This document shows, in pieces, positions 1-8,858 of a stretch of DNA of 64,000 nucleotides; the first letter of the stretch is position 1; each line of letters begins with the position of its first letter. Both the position numbers and the translations under genes were made by a program. The stretch spans positions 1 to 64,000 of the forward strand of contig NZ_NXLQ01000003.1 of NCBI RefSeq assembly GCF_003364195.1, read 5' to 3'. Below the pieces are notes generated by a model. The model had not been told where the DNA came from. It made no database searches and worked only from the letters and a program-made list of their open reading frames with translations. The stretch is from Helicobacter didelphidarum. GTDB lineage: Bacteria; Campylobacterota; Campylobacteria; Campylobacterales; Helicobacteraceae.

Positions 1-570
1 ACATGTGCCACTGATAGCCTTACCATTCTCAAAAGTAATACTAAAACGCAATGAGCCATCTTTGTGATACCATTTCCACATACCATCTGCTTCGTGATTT
101 TTATATGGAAATTCACCTTCAAGCCGTCCATTATCATAATACCATTTCACTACACCATCTAAGCTATCATTCTTATGTGGCATTTCTTCTCTAAGCCTCC
201 CATTTTCGTGATATGTTTTAGCTACGCCGTGTATCTCGCCATCTTTATGTGGTATTTCTAGCTCTAGCTTCCCATTCTCATAATATTGCCTCTCGATACC
301 ATCAAATTTACCATTTTTGAATGAAATCTCATTGAGAATATTCCCATTTTTGCCATATATTTTCTTTGTGCCTTCCAACATACTATCTTTAAATGGTATT
401 TCAATAGAAAGATTGCCATTTGCATAATATTCTCGTTCCGCACAGCCTTTGATTCTATCCTCATTAGTCTTGCACTCGGGAAGATTAGATTCTATGTTTG
501 TAGAATCTGCAAAAGCCGCCCCATTTAAGCTTATCATCGCATATAATGCTATAAATGCTAGTTTTTTCAT
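1..570 (-). CDS. MORN/YwqK-repeat exported protein, partial (3' end outside window)
   Basis: Reading minus from the ATG at 568-570, the frame stays open for 190 codons to base 1, so the C terminus lies outside the window. The start is preceded by AAGGA (TTAAGGATTTAAAT-ATG). The first 22 residues form a Sec signal peptide ending in AFA, with no lipobox cysteine, unlike most of its paralogues downstream. It is followed by the family linker (LPEC, then GC) and about six 24-residue MORN_2/YwqK-type repeats of the form G-x2-K-x-Y-Y-x-N-G-x-L-x3-P-Y-K, and the start of the family C-terminal cap (SLRFSITFENGKAISG). It is the first of seven tandem paralogues on this strand. YwqK-type repeats are often auto-labelled 'antitoxin', but no toxin partner is visible, and I assign no function beyond exported repeat protein. 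Confidence 0.8.
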   Translation of the reverse strand, partial: MKKLAFIALYAMISLNGAAFADSTNIESNLPECKTNEDRIKGCAEREYYANGNLSIEIPFKDSMLEGTKKIYGKNGNILNEISFKNGKFDGIERQYYENGKLELEIPHKDGEIHGVAKTYHENGRLREEMPHKNDSLDGVVKWYYDNGRLEGEFPYKNHEADGMWKWYHKDGSLRFSITFENGKAISGTC

Positions 571-605
571 ATTTAAATCCTTAATTATTTAGCTTAATCA
601 TCTCT

Positions 606-1631
606 CTAATCACACCCAAGCACGCTTATATCCCGCCCATTAAACTCGCTTAGTTTTTGAGCATCTATCTCTTTGCCATTGCTACATGTGCCACTGATAG
701 CCTTACCATTCTCAAAAGTAATACTAAAACGCAATGAGCCATCTTTGTGATACCATTTCCACATACCATCTGCTTCGTGATTTTTATATGGAAATTCACC
801 TTCAAGCCGTCCATTATCATAATACTCTTTCTCTATACCATTTTTTTTGCCATCTTTGTATGAAGTTTCTCTCCAAAGTTTGCGACTTTCATAATATGAT
901 TTCACTATACCATTTTTGAGTTTCCCTGATTTATCATAAAATGTTCTACTGATAAATGCATCATCTTTATACAAGCTCTCTTTTCTTTCGCCATTTTCAT
1001 AATGCTCTTTCGTTATACCATTTTTCTTGTCATCTTTGTATGGAATTTCCCACTTAAGTTTCCCATTTTTACCATATAATTTCTCTATACCCTCTATCTT
1101 GCCATCTTTGTATGGAGTTTCTCTCCAAAGATTCCCATTTTCATAATATCTTTTCTCTATACCATTTTTTTCGTCATCTTTGTATGGAGTTTCTCTCCGA
1201 AGATTCCCATTTTCATCATATCCTTTCTCTATACCCTCTATCTTGCCATCTTTGTATGGAGTTTCCCGCTCAAGATTCCCATTTTCATCATACCATTTCC
1301 CTATACCATTTTTTTCGTCATCTTTATATGGAATTTCTCTCCTAAGATTCCCATTTTCATAATACTCTTTCTCTATACCCTCTATCTTGCCATTTTTGTA
1401 TGGAGTTTCCCACATAAGATTCCCATTAAAATAATACTCTTTCTCTATACCATTTTTTTCGTCATCTTTGTATGGAATTTCCCACATAAGATTCCCATTA
1501 TAATAATAGGCTCTCTCCATACAACCCTTTATCTTATCCTCATTATTTTTACATTCGGGGAGATTTGCTCCACAACCCACAAAATACACGCTTATCATCG
1601 CACACAATGCTATAAATGCTAGTTTTTTCAT
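606..1631 (-). CDS. MORN/YwqK-repeat lipoprotein
   Basis: A 341-residue protein with a lipoprotein-type signal sequence: MKK start, hydrophobic core, then VGC at residues 18-20, so it is probably lipidated at Cys20. After the linker motif LPEC-x(n)-GC it carries about eleven 24-residue repeats (GIEK-x-YYENGNL-x2-ETPYKDGK type). The linkers between repeats alternate between DDEKN and DGKIE forms. One irregular unit, ERKESLYKDDAF...SGKLKN, also occurs in two other paralogues (once at 4567-5424, twice at 3068-4519), which suggests exchange of modules. The C-terminal cap is SLRFSITFENGKAISGTCSNGKE and the protein ends in CD. The RBS AAAGGAG lies 4 nt before the ATG at 1631. Repeats of this kind form beta-hairpin stacks in MORN_2 proteins; the ligand or partner is unknown. 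Confidence 0.85.
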   Translation of the reverse strand: MKKLAFIALCAMISVYFVGCGANLPECKNNEDKIKGCMERAYYYNGNLMWEIPYKDDEKNGIEKEYYFNGNLMWETPYKNGKIEGIEKEYYENGNLRREIPYKDDEKNGIGKWYDENGNLERETPYKDGKIEGIEKGYDENGNLRRETPYKDDEKNGIEKRYYENGNLWRETPYKDGKIEGIEKLYGKNGKLKWEIPYKDDKKNGITKEHYENGERKESLYKDDAFISRTFYDKSGKLKNGIVKSYYESRKLWRETSYKDGKKNGIEKEYYDNGRLEGEFPYKNHEADGMWKWYHKDGSLRFSITFENGKAISGTCSNGKEIDAQKLSEFNGRDISVLGCD

Positions 1632-1640
1632 ATTACTCCT

Positions 1641-3020
1641 TTAATTTAATTGCTTTTCGCAATAAAGTTCAAGTGTGCGGGACCTTGTAAATTCCTCATG
1701 CTCACGCAATTTTTCAGAACCTATTGTTCTGCCATTGCCACATGTGCCACTGATAGCCTTATCATTCTCAAAAGTAATACTAAAACGCAATGAGCCATCT
1801 TCGCCATAGTATTTCTCTATACCCTCTCTCTTGTCATCTTTGTATGGAATTTCCCTCAAAAGATTCCCATTTTCATGATACTCTTTCTTTATACCCTCTA
1901 TCTTGCCATCTTTGTATGGAGTTTTTCTCCAAAGTTTGCCATTTATATGATATATTTTCGCTATACCATTTTTCTCGTCATCTTTGTATGGCATTTCTAG
2001 CTCTAGCTTCCCATTCTCATAATATTGCCTCTCGATACCATCAAATTTACCATTTTTGAATGGAATCTCATTGAGAATATTCCCATTTTCACCATATATT
2101 TTCTTTATACCATTTTTCTCGTCATCTTTGTATGGAGTTTCTATCCAAAGTTTGCCACTTTCATAATATGATTTCTCTATACCATCTACCTTGTCATCTT
2201 TGTATGGAGTTTCCCTCAAAAGATTCCCATTTTCATCATATCCTTTCTCTATACCATTTTTTTCGTCATCTTTGTATGGAGTTTCTCTCCAAAGTTTCCC
2301 ATTTTCATGATAAAATTTCTCTACCCCATCTCTCTTGCCATCTTTGTATGGAATTTCTCTCCAAAGATTCCCATTTTCATAATATGTTTTTTCTATACCC
2401 TCTCTCTTGCCATCTTTATATGGAGTTTCTATCCAAAGATTCCCATTTGCATAATACCATTTCTCTACCCCATCTTTTTTGCCATCTTTGTATGGAGTTT
2501 CCCATCTAAGATTCCCATTTTCATTATATATTTTTGTTACTCCATCTCTTTTGCTATTTTTGTATGGGATTTTAGCTTTAAGCTTTCCATTTGTATGATA
2601 TGCTCTCTCTACCCCTTGTATCTTACCATTTTTAGATTCCACCTCATAGGCAAGATTCCCATTATCATAGTATTCTTTCATCACTCCATTTTTAGGATTT
2701 CCTTGCATATCAAAGCATAGAGTTGCACTCACTGGGATAGAATCCACGACTTTACTTTCACATAGAGTATGCCCATAAAGATAACTCCTACCTATACCAT
2801 TTGCTTCACCATTTTTTATTGGAGTTTCTGTTCGAGATTTCCCACTCTCATCACTTGCTATCAATAGGCAACCATTAATTCTATCCTCATCATTTTTACA
2901 CTCTGGGAGATGACTATAATCCTCGCTTGATGGAGTAGGGATAGAATCCTCATTTATCCCACAACCCACAAAATACACGCTTATCATCGCACACAATGCT
3001 ATAAATGCTAGTTTTTTCAT
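1641..3020 (-). CDS. MORN/YwqK-repeat lipoprotein with extended N-terminal module
   Basis: 459 residues. The signal peptide is nearly identical to that of the neighbouring paralogues, with VGC at residues 18-20. It then has an S/P-rich linker (SIPTPSSEDYSHLPEC), an atypical module of about 90 residues with two cysteines (HTLCESKVVDSIPVSATLCF), and about a dozen 24-residue repeats before the SLRFSITFEN cap. The N-terminal 200 residues are almost the same as in the gene at 5948-7099, in protein and in DNA, pointing to a recent duplication. It shares the strand and direction of the rest of the family, with 36 nt between its start and the paralogue upstream at 3068. The function is unknown; outer-membrane or inner-membrane anchoring is inferred from the lipobox. 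Confidence 0.85.
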   Translation of the reverse strand: MKKLAFIALCAMISVYFVGCGINEDSIPTPSSEDYSHLPECKNDEDRINGCLLIASDESGKSRTETPIKNGEANGIGRSYLYGHTLCESKVVDSIPVSATLCFDMQGNPKNGVMKEYYDNGNLAYEVESKNGKIQGVERAYHTNGKLKAKIPYKNSKRDGVTKIYNENGNLRWETPYKDGKKDGVEKWYYANGNLWIETPYKDGKREGIEKTYYENGNLWREIPYKDGKRDGVEKFYHENGKLWRETPYKDDEKNGIEKGYDENGNLLRETPYKDDKVDGIEKSYYESGKLWIETPYKDDEKNGIKKIYGENGNILNEIPFKNGKFDGIERQYYENGKLELEMPYKDDEKNGIAKIYHINGKLWRKTPYKDGKIEGIKKEYHENGNLLREIPYKDDKREGIEKYYGEDGSLRFSITFENDKAISGTCGNGRTIGSEKLREHEEFTRSRTLELYCEKQLN

Positions 3021-3067
3021 ATTTGCTTATCCTTTTATCATTCCATCAATTATCTGCATAGCACAGC

Positions 3068-4519
3068 TTACTGATTCTCATGATCTTTGAGTTCCTCATC
3101 AGTCAATATCCTGTCATCTATTGCCTTGCCATCTTTGTATGGAGTTTCCCTCAAAAGATTCCCATTTTCATAATACTCTTTCTTTATGCCCTCTATCTTG
3201 CCATCTTTGTATGGAGTTTCATACTTAAGATTCCCATTAGAATAATATATTTTCTCTATACCATCTTTTTTATCATTTTTATATGAAGTTTCTCTCCAAA
3301 GTTTGCCATTCTCATAATACTCTTTCTCTATACCATTTTTTTTGCCATTTTTGTATGGAGTTTCTAGCTCTAGCTTCCCATTCTCATAATATACTTTCTC
3401 TATACCCTCTATCTTGCCATCTTTGTATGGAGTTTTTCTCCAAAGTTTGCCATTTATATGATATGTTTTCTCTATACCATCTGCCTTGTCATCTTTGTAT
3501 GGAGTTTCCCTCAAAAGATTCCTATTCTCATAATAGCTTTTCTCTATACCATCTTTTTTGCTATTTTTGTATGGAGTTTCTGTTCGAAGATTCCCTTGCG
3601 TACTATACTCTTTCTCTATACCATTTTTCTTGCCATCTTTATATGGAGTTTCTATTGAAAGTTCCCCATTTTCATGATATATTTTATGTGCATCATTTTT
3701 GAGTTTCCCTGATTTATCATAAAATGTTGCACTGATAAATACATCATCTTTATACAAGCTCTCTTTTCTTTCGCCATTTTCATAATATACTTTCTCTATA
3801 CCATTTTTCTTGCCATCTTTATATGAAACTTCCCACTCAAGTTTCCCATTTTCATCATAGTATTTCTTTATACCATTTTGCTTGTCATCTTTATATGAAA
3901 CTTCCCACTTAAGTTTCCCATTTTCATCATAGTATTTCCCTATACCCTCTATCTTGTTATCTTTGTATGGAATTTCCCTCAAAAGATTCCCATTTTTATC
4001 ATATATTTTCTCTATACCCTCTATCTTGCCATCTTTATATGGAGTTTCATACTTGTTATACATATCATAATAGCTATACACACCATTTTTGAGTTTCCCT
4101 GATTTATCATAAAATGTTTTACTGATAAATACATCATCTTTATACAAGCTCTCTTTTCTTTCGCCATCTTCATAATATACTTTCTCTATACCATTTTTCT
4201 TGCCATCTTTATATGAAGTTTCTCTTGAAAGTTCCCCATTTTCATCATATCTTTTCTCTATACCATTTTTTTCGTCATTTTTGTATGGAGTTTCTTTCTG
4301 AAGATTCCCATTCTCATAATACTCTTTCTCTATACCCTCTATCTTGCCATCTTTATATGGAGCTTCCCACCTAAGCTTCCCATTAGAATAATAATAGCCT
4401 CTCTTCATACAACCCTTTATCTTATCCTCTTCATTTTGACACTCGGGGAGATTTGCTCCACAGCCTATAAAATACACGCTTATCATCGCACACAATGCTA
4501 TAAATGCCAACTTTTTCAT
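3068..4519 (-). CDS. MORN/YwqK-repeat lipoprotein, longest family member
   Basis: 483 residues. The lipobox is IGC at residues 18-20, followed by the linker LPECQNEEDKIKGC and roughly eighteen 24-residue repeats. It contains two copies of the irregular NGERKESLYKDDVF...SGKLKN unit, so part of the gene has probably been duplicated internally. Its C terminus differs from the SLRFSITFEN-cap members: the last repeat runs straight into a short polar tail (ILTDEELKDHENQ), which it shares in part with the gene at 4567-5424 (ILTDKELKYYENR). The family therefore has at least two C-terminal types. The spacer at its start (4512-4570) repeats the spacer at 3013-3071. Confidence 0.85.
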   Translation of the reverse strand: MKKLAFIALCAMISVYFIGCGANLPECQNEEDKIKGCMKRGYYYSNGKLRWEAPYKDGKIEGIEKEYYENGNLQKETPYKNDEKNGIEKRYDENGELSRETSYKDGKKNGIEKVYYEDGERKESLYKDDVFISKTFYDKSGKLKNGVYSYYDMYNKYETPYKDGKIEGIEKIYDKNGNLLREIPYKDNKIEGIGKYYDENGKLKWEVSYKDDKQNGIKKYYDENGKLEWEVSYKDGKKNGIEKVYYENGERKESLYKDDVFISATFYDKSGKLKNDAHKIYHENGELSIETPYKDGKKNGIEKEYSTQGNLRTETPYKNSKKDGIEKSYYENRNLLRETPYKDDKADGIEKTYHINGKLWRKTPYKDGKIEGIEKVYYENGKLELETPYKNGKKNGIEKEYYENGKLWRETSYKNDKKDGIEKIYYSNGNLKYETPYKDGKIEGIKKEYYENGNLLRETPYKDGKAIDDRILTDEELKDHENQ

Positions 4520-4566
4520 ATTTGCTTATCCTTTTATCATTCCATCAATTATCTGCATAGCACAGC

Positions 4567-5424
4567 TTACCGATTCTCATAATATTTGAGTTCCTTATCG
4601 GTCAATATCCTGCCACCGCTAATTTTACCACTTATTGCCTTGCCATTTTCATACACGATACTAAGAAACAATGGGCCATCTTCGTTATAGTATTTCTCTA
4701 TACCCTCTCTCTTGTCATCTTTGTATGGAGTTTCCCACTCAAGATTCCCATTTTTATAATACCATTTCTCTACCCCATCTTTTTTACCATTTTTGTATGG
4801 AATTTCTCTCCAAAGATTCCCATTATCATAATACCATTTCACTATACCATTTTTGAGTTTCCCTAATTCATCATAAAGTGTTTCACTGATAAATACATCA
4901 TCTTTATACAAGCTCTCTTTTCTTTCGCCATTTTCATCATAGTATTTCTCTATACCATTTTTCTTGCCATCTTTATATGAAGTTTCTATTGAAAGTTCCC
5001 CATTTTCACGATATAATTTCGCTATACCCTCTATCTTGCCATCTTTGTATGGATCTTCTCTCCAAAGATTCCCATTTTCATAATATAATTTCTCTATACC
5101 CTCTCTCTTGTCATCTTTGTATGGAGTTTCCCACTCAAGATTCCCATTATCATAATATACTTTCTCTATACCATTTTCTTTGCCATTTTTGTATGGAGTT
5201 TCCCGCTTAAGATTCCCATTATCATAATACCATTTCTCTATACCATTTTCTTTGCCATTTTTGTATGGAGTTTCCCGCTTAAGATTCCCATCAAAATAAT
5301 AGGCTCTCTCCATACAACCCTTTATCTTATCCTCTTCATTTTGACACTCGGGAAGATTTGCTCCACAGCCTATAAAATACACGCTTATCATCGCATATAA
5401 TGCTATAAATGCTAGTTTTTTCAT
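4567..5424 (-). CDS. MORN/YwqK-repeat lipoprotein
   Basis: 285 residues with the family signal peptide (IGC lipobox, residues 18-20), the LPECQNEEDKIKGC linker and about nine repeats. It includes one irregular NGERKESLYKDD...LGKLKN unit. The tail is SGGRILTDKELKYYENR, the second C-terminal type of the family. The ATG at 5424 is preceded by AAGGATTTAAAT, identical to the start region of the gene at 1-570. The block spanning this start and the end of the next gene (5383-5468) is an 86-nt exact copy of 529-614. Confidence 0.85.
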   Translation of the reverse strand: MKKLAFIALYAMISVYFIGCGANLPECQNEEDKIKGCMERAYYFDGNLKRETPYKNGKENGIEKWYYDNGNLKRETPYKNGKENGIEKVYYDNGNLEWETPYKDDKREGIEKLYYENGNLWREDPYKDGKIEGIAKLYRENGELSIETSYKDGKKNGIEKYYDENGERKESLYKDDVFISETLYDELGKLKNGIVKWYYDNGNLWREIPYKNGKKDGVEKWYYKNGNLEWETPYKDDKREGIEKYYNEDGPLFLSIVYENGKAISGKISGGRILTDKELKYYENR

Positions 5425-5459
5425 ATTTAAATCCTTAATTATTTAGCTTAATCATCTCT

Positions 5460-5918
5460 CTAATCACAGCCAAGTCTGCTCTTATCCAGCCTCCAAAGCT
5501 CCCTGAGTTTTTGAGAATCTATTGTCTTGCCATTACCACATTTACCACTGATAGCCTTACCATTCTCAAAAGTAATACTAAAACGCAATGAGCCATCTTC
5601 GCCATAGCGTTTCTCTACACCATCTCTCTTGTCATCTTTGTATGGAATTTCCCTCAAAAGATTCCCATTTTCATGATACTCTTTCTTTATACCCTCTATC
5701 TTGCCATCTTTGTATGGAATTTCCCTCAAAAGATTCCCATTAGAATAATAGACTCTCTCCATGCAACCCTTTATCTTATCCTCATTATTTTTACACTCTG
5801 GCGAATGGCTAGAATCTCCGCTTGATTTTATAGAATCTACTACTACGCCACTTGTATAACCCACAGATTGCAAACTCAATGCACCAAATATCATTATAAA
5901 TGCTATTTTTTTCATCAT
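5460..5918 (-). CDS. Short MORN/YwqK-repeat exported protein
   Basis: 152 residues, the smallest complete member of the array. The first 22 or so residues form a signal peptide but lack a lipobox cysteine, so the product is probably released into the periplasm or beyond rather than lipidated. A linker (SHSPECKNNEDKIKGC), only about three 24-residue repeats and the SLRFSITFENGKAISGKCGNGK cap follow. Two adjacent ATG codons (5918 and 5915) could start it; the difference is one Met. It may be a reduced copy produced by deletion of repeats, since its ends match those of longer members. Confidence 0.8.
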   Translation of the reverse strand: MMKKIAFIMIFGALSLQSVGYTSGVVVDSIKSSGDSSHSPECKNNEDKIKGCMERVYYSNGNLLREIPYKDGKIEGIKKEYHENGNLLREIPYKDDKRDGVEKRYGEDGSLRFSITFENGKAISGKCGNGKTIDSQKLRELWRLDKSRLGCD

Positions 5919-5947
5919 TCAATCCTTGTATTTATAGATATTATCCT

Positions 5948-7099
5948 TTAATCACAATCAATCTTGGTCATATCCAAACGCCCTTTTTCTTCAAATCTAC
6001 GCAAATAATTAGAATCTATCTCTTTGCCATCACTACATACACCACTGACAATTTTATTGTTTTCAAAAGTGAGACTGAAGTGCAATGAGCCATCTTCGCG
6101 ATACCTCTTTATCTTACCCACTATCTTGTTGTTTCTATATAGTGCCTCACTATTAAGATTGCCATTTTCCCAATACAATCTAAATACCCCATCTATCCCA
6201 TCATTTTTATATGGAGTTTCTGCTTTAAGATTCCCGCTTTGATAATAGCTCCGCTCCACACAGCCTTTTATTTTATCCTCATTGTTTTTGCACTCTGGGA
6301 GATGGCTATAATCCTCGCTTGATGGAGTAGGGCTAGAATCTGCATTACTAGAATCTTGCGTGCTAGAATCTAATGAGCCATCTTCGCGATACCATTTCGT
6401 TTTGCCATCTTTTATGCCATCTTTGTATGGAGTTTCTATCCAAAGATTCCCATTCTCATAATACCATTTCTCTACCCCATCTTTTTTACCATCTTTGTGT
6501 GGAGTTTCCCACATAAGATTCCCATTCTCATAATACCATTTCCCTACCCCATCTTTTTTACCATCTTTGTATGGAGTTTCCCATCTAAGATTCCCATTTT
6601 CATTATATATTTTTGTTACTCCATCTCTTTTGCTATTTTTGTATGGGATTTTAGCTTTAAGCTTTCCATTTGTATGATATGCTCTCTCTACCCCTTGTAT
6701 CCTACCATTTTTAAATTCCACCTCATAGGCAAGATTTCCATTTTCATGGTATTCTTTAACGACCCCATTTTTGGGATTTCCTCGCATATCAAAGCATAGA
6801 GTTGCACTCACTGGGATAGAATCCACGACTTTACTTTCACATAGAGTATGCCCATAAAGATAACTCCTAACTATACCATTTGCTTCACCATTTTTTATTG
6901 GAGTTTCTGTTCGAAATTTCTCACTCTCATCACTATATATCCACAGGCAACCATTAATTCTATCCTCATCATTTTTACACTCTGGGAGATGACTATAATC
7001 CTCGCTTGATGGAGTAGGGATAGAATCCTTATTTATCCCACAGCCTATAAAATACACGCTTATCATCGCACACAATGCTATAAATGCTAGTTTTTTCAT
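5948..7099 (-). CDS. MORN/YwqK-repeat lipoprotein, apparent fusion of two family units
   Basis: 383 residues. The first part (signal peptide with IGC, SIPTPSSEDYSHLPEC linker, two-Cys module, repeats) is nearly identical to the gene at 1641-3020. After a short Ser/Asp-rich linker (STQDSSNADSSPTPSS) at about residues 243-258, a second copy of the mature N terminus begins again with SSEDYSHLPEC...GC, without a signal peptide. More divergent repeats and a cap follow (SLHFSLTFEN), ending in CD. This is best read as two array genes joined in frame. It is the most upstream gene of the array as transcribed; the ATG at 7099 is preceded by AAGGACTGAAAT. Confidence 0.85.
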   Translation of the reverse strand: MKKLAFIALCAMISVYFIGCGINKDSIPTPSSEDYSHLPECKNDEDRINGCLWIYSDESEKFRTETPIKNGEANGIVRSYLYGHTLCESKVVDSIPVSATLCFDMRGNPKNGVVKEYHENGNLAYEVEFKNGRIQGVERAYHTNGKLKAKIPYKNSKRDGVTKIYNENGNLRWETPYKDGKKDGVGKWYYENGNLMWETPHKDGKKDGVEKWYYENGNLWIETPYKDGIKDGKTKWYREDGSLDSSTQDSSNADSSPTPSSEDYSHLPECKNNEDKIKGCVERSYYQSGNLKAETPYKNDGIDGVFRLYWENGNLNSEALYRNNKIVGKIKRYREDGSLHFSLTFENNKIVSGVCSDGKEIDSNYLRRFEEKGRLDMTKIDCD

Positions 7100-7171
7100 A
7101 TTTCAGTCCTTGATTCTCAAATATTTGCCAAACATATCCTAATGCGACTTGAGATGAGTGTCAAGAGTTTT

Positions 7172-7918
7172 TCACAATCGACATTCATAAATGAAATTTT
7201 CGCATTCATTATTGATAGCTTGTTCTTTTGCAAAAGAGGAGTATATCATAACTTTGTCAAATCCAATTTCTTTGAGGCATTGCTCCATTTCGCCAAGCTC
7301 ATAGAGATGTGTTTGAAAGTCCATATATTGACTTTCAAGCAATGTCGCACCATCATAGAGTTCATACACGCTGGGCGAAAATTGTGTCTTGCTTGTTGTA
7401 TCATAAAAATTTTTGGTTTTTGCTATCAAGTCATAGCCTTCTTGTGTCTTTACAGCAAGTGAGGGCTTATAATCTATGTCATCTTCACACTGACAAGCAA
7501 TCGTATCTACTGCAAAGACAAGCCTCCCGCCCGAAGTAAGCAAACCCTTCAGATGAGAGAGAATCTGTTTGCAGAGATTCATATCTGTAAAAAGCGAAAT
7601 CGAACCTGAAGGGATAAAAATATAATCAAATTGATGATAAAAAGTGTGGTGCATAATTTCGCCGTGAATGACATTGGCATTTGGAGCTTTTTGCCGCAAC
7701 CTCTCAAGCATTTCGCACGAATTATCAATACCCATAATATCAAATCCTCTTTGCAAAAAAGGAATAAGAAATCGCCCACTCCCGCACAATGGCTCTAGAA
7801 TCTTATCGCTTTTCTTCGCATAAGAAAGATAAAAATCTAGCTCATCACTCGGGGCTTTTTCGTGCAATATCTCATACATCTGTGTGCAAAGATTGCCATA
7901 ATAGTTTTGTTTATTCAT
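7172..7918 (-). CDS. Class I SAM-dependent methyltransferase
   Basis: 248 residues with a Rossmann-type methyltransferase fold. Motif I is ILEPLCGSGRFLIPFLQRG at about residues 40-58, followed by an acidic second strand (DIMGIDNSCEML) and the post-motif strand FDYIFIPSGSISLF. The region resembles small-molecule methyltransferases (Methyltransf_11/25 type); the substrate cannot be read from the sequence. It lies downstream of dprA on the same strand, with about 60 nt between, and just beyond the 5' end of the MORN array. Translation from the ATG at 7918 fits the domain boundary. Confidence 0.8.
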   Translation of the reverse strand: MNKQNYYGNLCTQMYEILHEKAPSDELDFYLSYAKKSDKILEPLCGSGRFLIPFLQRGFDIMGIDNSCEMLERLRQKAPNANVIHGEIMHHTFYHQFDYIFIPSGSISLFTDMNLCKQILSHLKGLLTSGGRLVFAVDTIACQCEDDIDYKPSLAVKTQEGYDLIAKTKNFYDTTSKTQFSPSVYELYDGATLLESQYMDFQTHLYELGEMEQCLKEIGFDKVMIYSSFAKEQAINNECENFIYECRL

Positions 7919-7979: not shown

Positions 7980-8858
7980 TTAAATGATTCCAGAAGAACA
8001 AAGTACAATATAATGCCCTACTCTTTTTATTTTACCTTCTAGTTCGTATTCCAAAACTTTGTCGCCAAATTTCTCTAATGCGACATCAAAACTCCCATGA
8101 TTTTTTGCAAACTCAATCAATTCATCATGCTCAATCTCCATAGAATCTAATTTAAAATATTCTCGAGTTATTTGGAAAAAAGATTCTATATTATAAATAC
8201 ATCTCGCATGATTTTTATCAAGTAATTCCTGTGTGCCTAGACTCTCATTTAATCTATGTGGCAGGACAAATAAAGGTTTTCCCAATGCAACACTAAGATT
8301 TGCCGATGAGCTTGAACCACTTCGTATATCGGCTTGCGGGATAATAACTATATCGCTTAATGCGATAATAATGCGATTTCGTTCTAAGAAGCTATGCTTT
8401 CGTGGCATAAAATCATATTCATACTCACTTAAAACAAGTCCATTTGTGCGAATAAAGTCTAGAATCTTTGCACTTTCTTTTGGATAATTCATATTAACAC
8501 CTGAAGGTAACACAACAATACTTTTTTCTTTACTATTTTGATGTGCCACACTATCTACGCCAATTGCCCCACCACTTACAATTACACACCCCATAGATAC
8601 AAGTTCTGTGGCAAGGTATGAGCTATAATACTTCGTATATTGATTGGGTGTACGTGTACCAACAATGGCAACTTTTGGTTGCTTTAATAAATCAAGATTC
8701 CCTTGTGCAAAAATACCTTGAAAATCTTTATATAAATGCTTACTAGAAAGCTTTGCTTCTTTTGCAATTGTTCGGATATTTTGCAAAGTTTGGAGTGTAG
8801 ATTCTGATACATATTGTTGCAATATATCAGGAGTAAGAAAAGTTGCATCATTTGACAT
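7980..8858 (-). CDS. dprA: DNA-processing protein DprA (Smf)
   Basis: 292 residues, close to the usual length for epsilon-proteobacterial DprA. The Rossmann-like DprA core is clear: VAIVGTRTPNQYTKYYSS, then VSGGAIGVDSVAHQ (the family SGxAxGID motif), IVVLPSGVNMNYP, a SFLERNRIIIALSD stretch and ALGKPLFVLPH. In this family the protein binds incoming single-stranded DNA and loads RecA during natural transformation. The C-terminal segment (about residues 240-290) could be a small winged-helix domain. No other competence gene is adjacent, but comM/yifB lies 12 kb away. Confidence 0.92.
   Translation of the reverse strand: MSNDATFLTPDILQQYVSESTLQTLQNIRTIAKEAKLSSKHLYKDFQGIFAQGNLDLLKQPKVAIVGTRTPNQYTKYYSSYLATELVSMGCVIVSGGAIGVDSVAHQNSKEKSIVVLPSGVNMNYPKESAKILDFIRTNGLVLSEYEYDFMPRKHSFLERNRIIIALSDIVIIPQADIRSGSSSSANLSVALGKPLFVLPHRLNESLGTQELLDKNHARCIYNIESFFQITREYFKLDSMEIEHDELIEFAKNHGSFDVALEKFGDKVLEYELEGKIKRVGHYIVLCSSGII

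Follow-up and report, generated by a model that had tools for sequence, protein, structure and literature searches.

The window analysed here, bases 1 to 64,000 of contig C183 in the draft genome of Helicobacter didelphidarum (2.59 Mb in 249 contigs), opens with a tandem array of seven co-oriented minus-strand genes (positions 1-7099), all of which encode repeat proteins of the MORN_2 type (PF07661) that are predicted to be exported. The best explanation of this locus as a whole, to which we give a probability of roughly 0.55, is that it is a horizontally exchanged, reshuffling block of variable binding proteins displayed at the cell envelope. The parts of this reading differ in strength: sequence comparison makes recombination and mobility of the array highly probable, export of the array proteins can be predicted with comparably high confidence, and a surface-binding role, for instance in adhering to host matrix or glycans or in evading recognition, is argued by analogy and stands at about even odds.

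A methyltransferase-array block in two genera

One line of evidence for this reading comes from comparison with Helicobacter sp. 15-1451 (G142), which belongs to a different GTDB genus. With the array genes numbered 1 to 7 from the contig start, window positions 6718-7910, which hold a small methyltransferase gene and the start of gene 7, match G142 C39:1-1205 at 96% DNA identity, and positions 1-574 (gene 1) match the last gene of the 15-1451 array (L038:3339-3986) at 98%, the codon differences in gene 1 being 8 non-synonymous and 1 synonymous. The methyltransferase, which is absent from all 13 other genomes of the genus, is 98.4% identical to its 15-1451 counterpart in nucleotides and 98% in protein. 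The methyltransferase has a synonymous divergence (dS) of 0.021 and gene 1 one of 0.009, against 1.84 for HisS, a synonymously saturated core gene with 59% amino acid identity between the two genomes. The order of the block is also held in common, with the methyltransferase followed by a gene of the gene 7 type, and with the gene 1 type standing last in the 15-1451 array and last among those visible in the window. The surroundings differ: the upstream flank is a PhzF-like gene in 15-1451 and a DprA-like gene in the window genome, and the downstream end of the 15-1451 array is followed by a 229-residue open reading frame (hemD-like by inspection), a flank for which a DNA search found no match in the window genome.

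Between these shared ends the two interiors are different mosaics. One case is gene 3 (1641-3020). In its first bases it is 99% identical to sister gene 573 of the 15-1451 array; through its middle part it matches sister gene 2547 at 95%, over 96 nt it follows sister gene 3339 at 98% where no other sister gene exceeds 81%, and in its C-terminal part it is 94-99% identical to sister gene 1818. Because the ends are near-identical at low dS while the flanks differ and the interiors are different mosaics, we read the methyltransferase and array from their sequences as a block that was recently exchanged between genera and then reshuffled. A preliminary description of the locus had missed this cross-genus sharing, although its proposal of diversification by recombination is strongly supported by the cross-species comparison; of the two neighbours beside which it proposed to look for the array in relatives, the methyltransferase travels with the array in 15-1451 and dprA does not.

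The methyltransferase was also considered as a fixed partner of MORN arrays, a notion rejected on finding relatives of 57-63% identity in another genus with no MORN gene nearby. The 15-1451 genome holds a second, decayed methyltransferase copy with several stops (L172:5530-6060). The viral contigs searched gave no relative, and a plasmid search returned only partial matches from Fusobacterium and Cetobacterium.

Organization of the array

The features of the array and its upstream side are as follows.

1..570, minus strand: MORN_2 gene 1, 190 amino acids, running off the window at the contig start and the last array gene visible; type I-like signal peptide (AFA/D), N-cap LPEC...GC, at least 5 units, SLRFSITFEN C-cap
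606..1631, minus strand: MORN_2 gene 2, 341 amino acids, lipobox-like FVGC, about 10 units, one irregular KESLYKDD module, Cys-paired C-cap
1641..3020, minus strand: MORN_2 gene 3, 459 amino acids, lipobox-like FVGC, about 13 units, mosaic of four sister-array genes
3068..4519, minus strand: MORN_2 gene 4, 483 amino acids, lipobox-like FIGC, about 16 units, two irregular modules; ILTDEELK tail without C-cap cysteines
4567..5424, minus strand: MORN_2 gene 5, 285 amino acids, lipobox-like FIGC, about 8 units, one irregular module; hybrid C-terminus, SIVYENGKAISG... then ILTDKELK
5460..5918, minus strand: MORN_2 gene 6, 152 amino acids, 2 units counted by hidden Markov model (HMM), Cys-paired C-cap; signal peptide bearing Tyr at the lipobox Cys position
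5948..7099, minus strand: MORN_2 gene 7, 383 amino acids, first of the array, lipobox-like FIGC, about 8 units, second internal linker and N-cap
7172..7918, minus strand: class I S-adenosylmethionine-dependent methyltransferase, 72 bp upstream of gene 7 on the same strand
7980..8858, minus strand: DprA-like protein, a flank outside the shared block

The genes are separated by gaps of 9-47 bp, with a purine-rich site upstream of each, and all complete copies have an intact start, a ribosome-site-like upstream sequence and an intact reading frame. Identical 30-nt upstream sequences are found in two pairs, genes 4 and 3 (3068 and 1641) and genes 5 and 1 (4567 and 1), suggesting that whole gene units were duplicated. 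Since window position 1 is base 1 of the contig, whose first 128 bases are repeated exactly at 684, the assembly breaks within the array and leaves gene 1 incomplete. The seven genes described beforehand are thus indeed present but represent a minimum, the downstream side of the array lying off the contig; contig C210 (L009, 3.9 kb) adds one further complete member and the tail of another. We did not accept C210 as the direct continuation of the window, as the upstream gene tail on it resembles gene 7 rather than gene 1. Downstream of its MORN_2 gene, C210 carries a type II restriction enzyme paired with a methyltransferase (L009:423-2355).

No G/C homopolymer tract of 6 or more, of the kind associated with phase variation, was found in the window array, and promoter-like sites occur there no more often than in shuffled sequences. 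An antigenic-variation cassette system, in which silent copies feed an expression site, does not fit an array in which all complete copies are intact. In another part of the same genome (contig C172, L011:4411-5071), a MORN_2 lipoprotein gene falls into two overlapping frames at a seven-G run, which is possibly a slipped-strand phase-variation tract or else a frameshift.

The DprA-like gene scores under the TIGR00732 cut-off. None of the 8 relatives' loci examined has an array adjoining it, and in three relatives (L126, L129 and L130) it stands beside what appear, as read from the sequence, to be type I restriction genes.

Repeat units, caps and predicted structure

All six complete genes exceed the PF07661 gathering score of 29.6, with E values from 1.9e-16 to 8e-73 and scores from 58.6 to 232 bits. 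The repeat unit is 72 bp or 24 residues long, and 39 copies of one reference unit lie in register in the DNA. HMM unit counts for genes 1 to 7 are 5+, 10, 13, 16, 8, 2 and 8, so that repeat number does differ among members as the preliminary description had it, but not over exactly its range of about 3 to 18. Its picture of seven co-oriented exported paralogues with 24-residue units and a Cys-pair linker is borne out by the open reading frames, the Pfam matches and the 72-bp unit. A two-Cys N-cap is present in all seven genes, in the form LPEC...GC except in gene 6 (5460-5918), which has SPEC...GC. Both of the C-terminal types previously noted occur, SLRFSITFEN in genes 1, 2, 3 and 6 and ILTDEELK in gene 4, and to these are added a SLHFSLTFEN variant in gene 7 and the hybrid of gene 5. 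Lipidation is likewise predicted to differ among members, with a lipobox-like FVGC or FIGC at residue 20 in five of the seven genes and none in genes 1 and 6. The irregular KESLYKDD...GKLKN module, reported from three genes, is present there in four copies at 92-97% DNA identity. Gene 7 carries a second linker and N-cap internally (Cys 270/280), and for that reason reads as a fusion of two members.

In an alignment of 45 members from several species, N-cap cysteines 27 and 37 are invariant and C-cap cysteines 316 and 340 are at least 90% conserved; within the window, cysteines of the mature parts come in pairs, with the C-cap pair missing from genes 4 and 5 (3068 and 4567). As the cysteines are paired and the proteins predicted to be exported, disulfides would be expected between them. 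An AlphaFold2 model of gene 2 (606-1631), with a predicted local distance difference test (pLDDT) of 90.9 and a predicted template modelling score (pTM) of 0.68, casts the repeats as a continuous series of beta-hairpins; a short helix falls between the two N-cap cysteines, and the C-cap is predicted to be helical. Its nearest folds by Foldseek are the MORN1 proteins of Toxoplasma, Plasmodium and Trypanosoma and engineered single-layer sheets of OspA, which have an extended antiparallel beta-hairpin sheet in common with it, but the likeness is local only (TM to query 0.25-0.43) and sequence identity is low (11-23%).

Variation within units was followed in two sets: 75 units taken from the window array, the sister array and contig C210, and 235 taken from species of the H. 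bilis group. Across these, variation is slight or absent at Y1, G5, K14, G20 and K23, conservation is strong at L7 and E10, and variability rises to 3.0-3.7 bits at positions 8 and 9 and to 2.5-3.3 bits at position 18. The model suggests that positions 8, 9 and 18 are exposed. A fixed scaffold bearing a variable surface pattern is consistent with modular binding, though it is no proof of it, and given the invariant scaffold and these variable positions, reshuffling of units would therefore reshuffle the exposed surface.

Turnover at the same chromosomal sites

Helicobacter bilis is the closest named relative within our sample of the genus, and genomes of its group carry the family at many chromosomal sites, about 12 of them in the complete genome G013. 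When G013 and G002 are compared site by site (the flank names miaA, glmU, hisF, valS and ribA being read from the sequences), there are 2 versus 5 genes at glmU, 2 versus 3 at hisF, 4 versus 4 with unlike repeat numbers at miaA, and, at valS, 10 repeats versus a gene broken across two contigs that hold 5 and 11; the flanks diverge by a dS of 0.05-0.07 at miaA, glmU and hisF and of 0.25 at ribA, which adjoins the valS site. One miaA-site pair is near-identical over about 1 kb and differs by one exact 72-bp unit, together with a few bases inside one unit and a C-terminal patch. Among 150 120-nt stretches of G013 matched in G002, the best match lay at the same site for 71 and at another site for 79, in a test that takes best matches only, certain sites being absent from G002 or broken there. 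Codon changes in MORN_2 pairs number 88 non-synonymous and 46 synonymous, versus 21 and 73 in flank genes (Fisher p 1e-10).

Several members in this family are joined to other sequences. MORN_2 genes in three genomes of the H. bilis group share a foreign end, NLNTQAN...K.. FNAK (L051:9300-9578, L085:5149-5424 and L101:127-402), which in G013 is followed by prophage-like genes and suggests that one mobile element inserts into MORN_2 repeats. At L057:2817-3704 a MORN_2 unit is joined in frame with a phage PBECR1 nuclease-like domain, and at L077:3568-4629, beside another MORN_2 gene, a MORN_2 N-cap continues in frame as a protein phosphatase 2C-like domain (PF13672), a joint that may be a fusion or an insertion.

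Related systems

Large exported sets of MORN2 proteins are described in Fusobacterium, with 1 to 27 repeats of about 20 residues, and are thought to aid adhesion or invasion (PMC12940168); they are present in outer-membrane vesicles and their function is unproven (PMC10434195, PMC12940168). In Helicobacter too a single genome holds many paralogous exported MORN_2 proteins of varying repeat number (42 units in the window genome, 71 and 114 in two relatives), but Fusobacterium belongs to another phylum, and its MORN2 genes are reported next to type Va autotransporter and adhesin genes (PMC12940168), whereas the Helicobacter arrays adjoin a methyltransferase or housekeeping genes. No autotransporter gene was recognised beside the Helicobacter arrays examined, a statement about these neighbourhoods and not from a genome-wide search. 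Cross-genus transfer and unit-exact turnover are not among the features described in the passages of the Fusobacterium account that were consulted.

Searches of Pfam, NCBIfam, PADLOC, PHROGs and PDB sequences yielded no clue to function apart from MORN_2 and a below-threshold match to NF033566, the equivalog model of the LIC20035 adhesin family and the only NCBIfam family matched by the six complete genes. LIC20035 of Leptospira is described as a surface-exposed adhesin that binds collagen and chondroitin sulfate (PMC10927737). The model matches much of each array protein.

From Helicobacter itself, a paper of 2017 notes one YwqK-like system, in an isolate similar to H. bilis (PMC5741639). Our literature search, which was of partial coverage, found no description of Helicobacter MORN arrays, their cross-genus transfer or unit-level turnover; the expansion of exported MORN_2 proteins is already known from Fusobacterium, and its mobile, shuffling form in Helicobacter appears undescribed in the literature searched.

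Proposed mechanism and alternative explanations

In the mechanism that we propose, the locus would be a horizontally exchanged block of a small methyltransferase and a tandem array of exported, mostly lipid-anchored MORN_2 proteins, each of them probably a long antiparallel beta-meander with a Cys-paired N-cap and, in most cases, a second Cys-paired C-cap. Gain and loss of 72-bp units, gene-sized duplication and deletion, fusion and recombination between paralogues would change repeat number, order and caps, as seen between species, while the invariant Y1, G5, L7, E10, K14, G20 and K23 would keep the scaffold and changes at 8, 9 and 18 would alter the exposed surface. The product would be a variable binding surface displayed at the envelope, working like Leptospira LIC20035 and, presumably, the Fusobacterium MORN2 proteins.

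Several points weigh against this reading. Its evidence for array variation lies between species, with one genome per species in our collections. The NF033566 scores, 34.6 to 140.9 bits, fall far under the cut-off of 250, so that the array proteins are not members of the LIC20035 family. The evidence for the predicted location at the surface or in the periplasm consists of signal peptides, lipobox-like motifs and paired cysteines. The non-synonymous excess comes partly from copied patches and may reflect weak constraint or diversification rather than positive selection. Both genomes of the cross-genus comparison are fragmented drafts whose contigs break within the arrays, and this last point would also favour the view that the mosaic arose through misassembly or through contamination between samples. 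We consider such an origin very improbable, as the array lies on a 158-kb contig with a divergent HisS, as contamination would give neither the 1.5-4% divergence in the shared block nor the unlike gene arrangement, and as the complete genome G013 has like arrays with exact one-unit differences.

Automatic annotation gives MORN_2-type proteins the name 'YwqK family antitoxin', which the Cetobacterium plasmid match also carries, and under this antitoxin reading each lipoprotein would be a periplasmic immunity protein that neutralizes a toxin delivered by a neighbouring cell, for instance by a type VI secretion system (T6SS), with recombination tracking the toxins. Such a role has precedents in YwqK of Bacillus subtilis, encoded together with the LXG toxin YwqJ (PMC8321402), and in a YwqK-domain protein within a T6SS effector set of P. 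fluorescens, and the T6SS sheath gene TssB is found in 8 of 14 genomes of the genus, that of the window included. The repeat type is the same as in YwqK, but the Helicobacter proteins have signal peptides and Cys-paired caps and their arrays no paired toxin. On the visible side of the window array the neighbours are the methyltransferase, the DprA-like gene and HisS, with no toxin gene among them; the antitoxin label finds no support at this locus, and the earlier caution over it was sound. No toxin gene was seen beside the relatives' arrays examined either, and at about 40 MORN sites the recognised neighbours look housekeeping (a reading of the sequences, few of them Pfam-scanned), with phage-derived DNA at two sites as the sole exception. 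The T6SS itself lies on other contigs in the window genome and in G013 is separated by about 130 kb from the nearest array, the T6SS-positive G009 has no MORN_2 match while the T6SS-negative G007 and G012 have many (Mann-Whitney p 0.07-0.17), and PADLOC gives no match for the MORN proteins submitted. With no toxin neighbour seen and with T6SS presence tracking MORN_2 number poorly, the antitoxin reading is the weaker one, and we regard it as unlikely.

The turnover might also be non-adaptive, with repeats and copies expanding, shrinking and spreading through easy recombination in proteins of little function or of a conserved bulk function. The 72-bp direct repeats are natural substrates for recombination, several members elsewhere are truncated, frameshifted or phage-invaded, and the non-synonymous excess could reflect relaxed constraint. 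Yet the six complete window genes keep intact frames and caps, invariant scaffold residues stand beside hypervariable ones within the same units, a 72-bp change preserves the frame, and capped members persist at low copy number across many species; turnover of this kind we judge improbable.

Implications

Under the reading of a reshuffling block of envelope-displayed binding proteins, a further and more tentative suggestion, doubtful as it stands, is that two or three hypervariable residues per 24-residue unit, set on a constant beta scaffold, encode ligand specificity and that recombination reassorts the order of units, in which case the methyltransferase-array block would be a mobile, self-shuffling repertoire in enterohepatic Helicobacter, with whole repertoires crossing genera through DNA uptake.

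The expansion of MORN2 proteins has been called highly specific to Fusobacterium in a review (PMC12940168), a claim that the Helicobacter genomes contradict, as large exported MORN_2 families extend beyond that genus. The findings also count against the automatic name 'YwqK family antitoxin' for these genes. Arrays with near-identical ends and rebuilt interiors are natural experiments, which permit both the measurement of how fast a repeat repertoire recombines and a test of whether the variable unit positions set ligand specificity.

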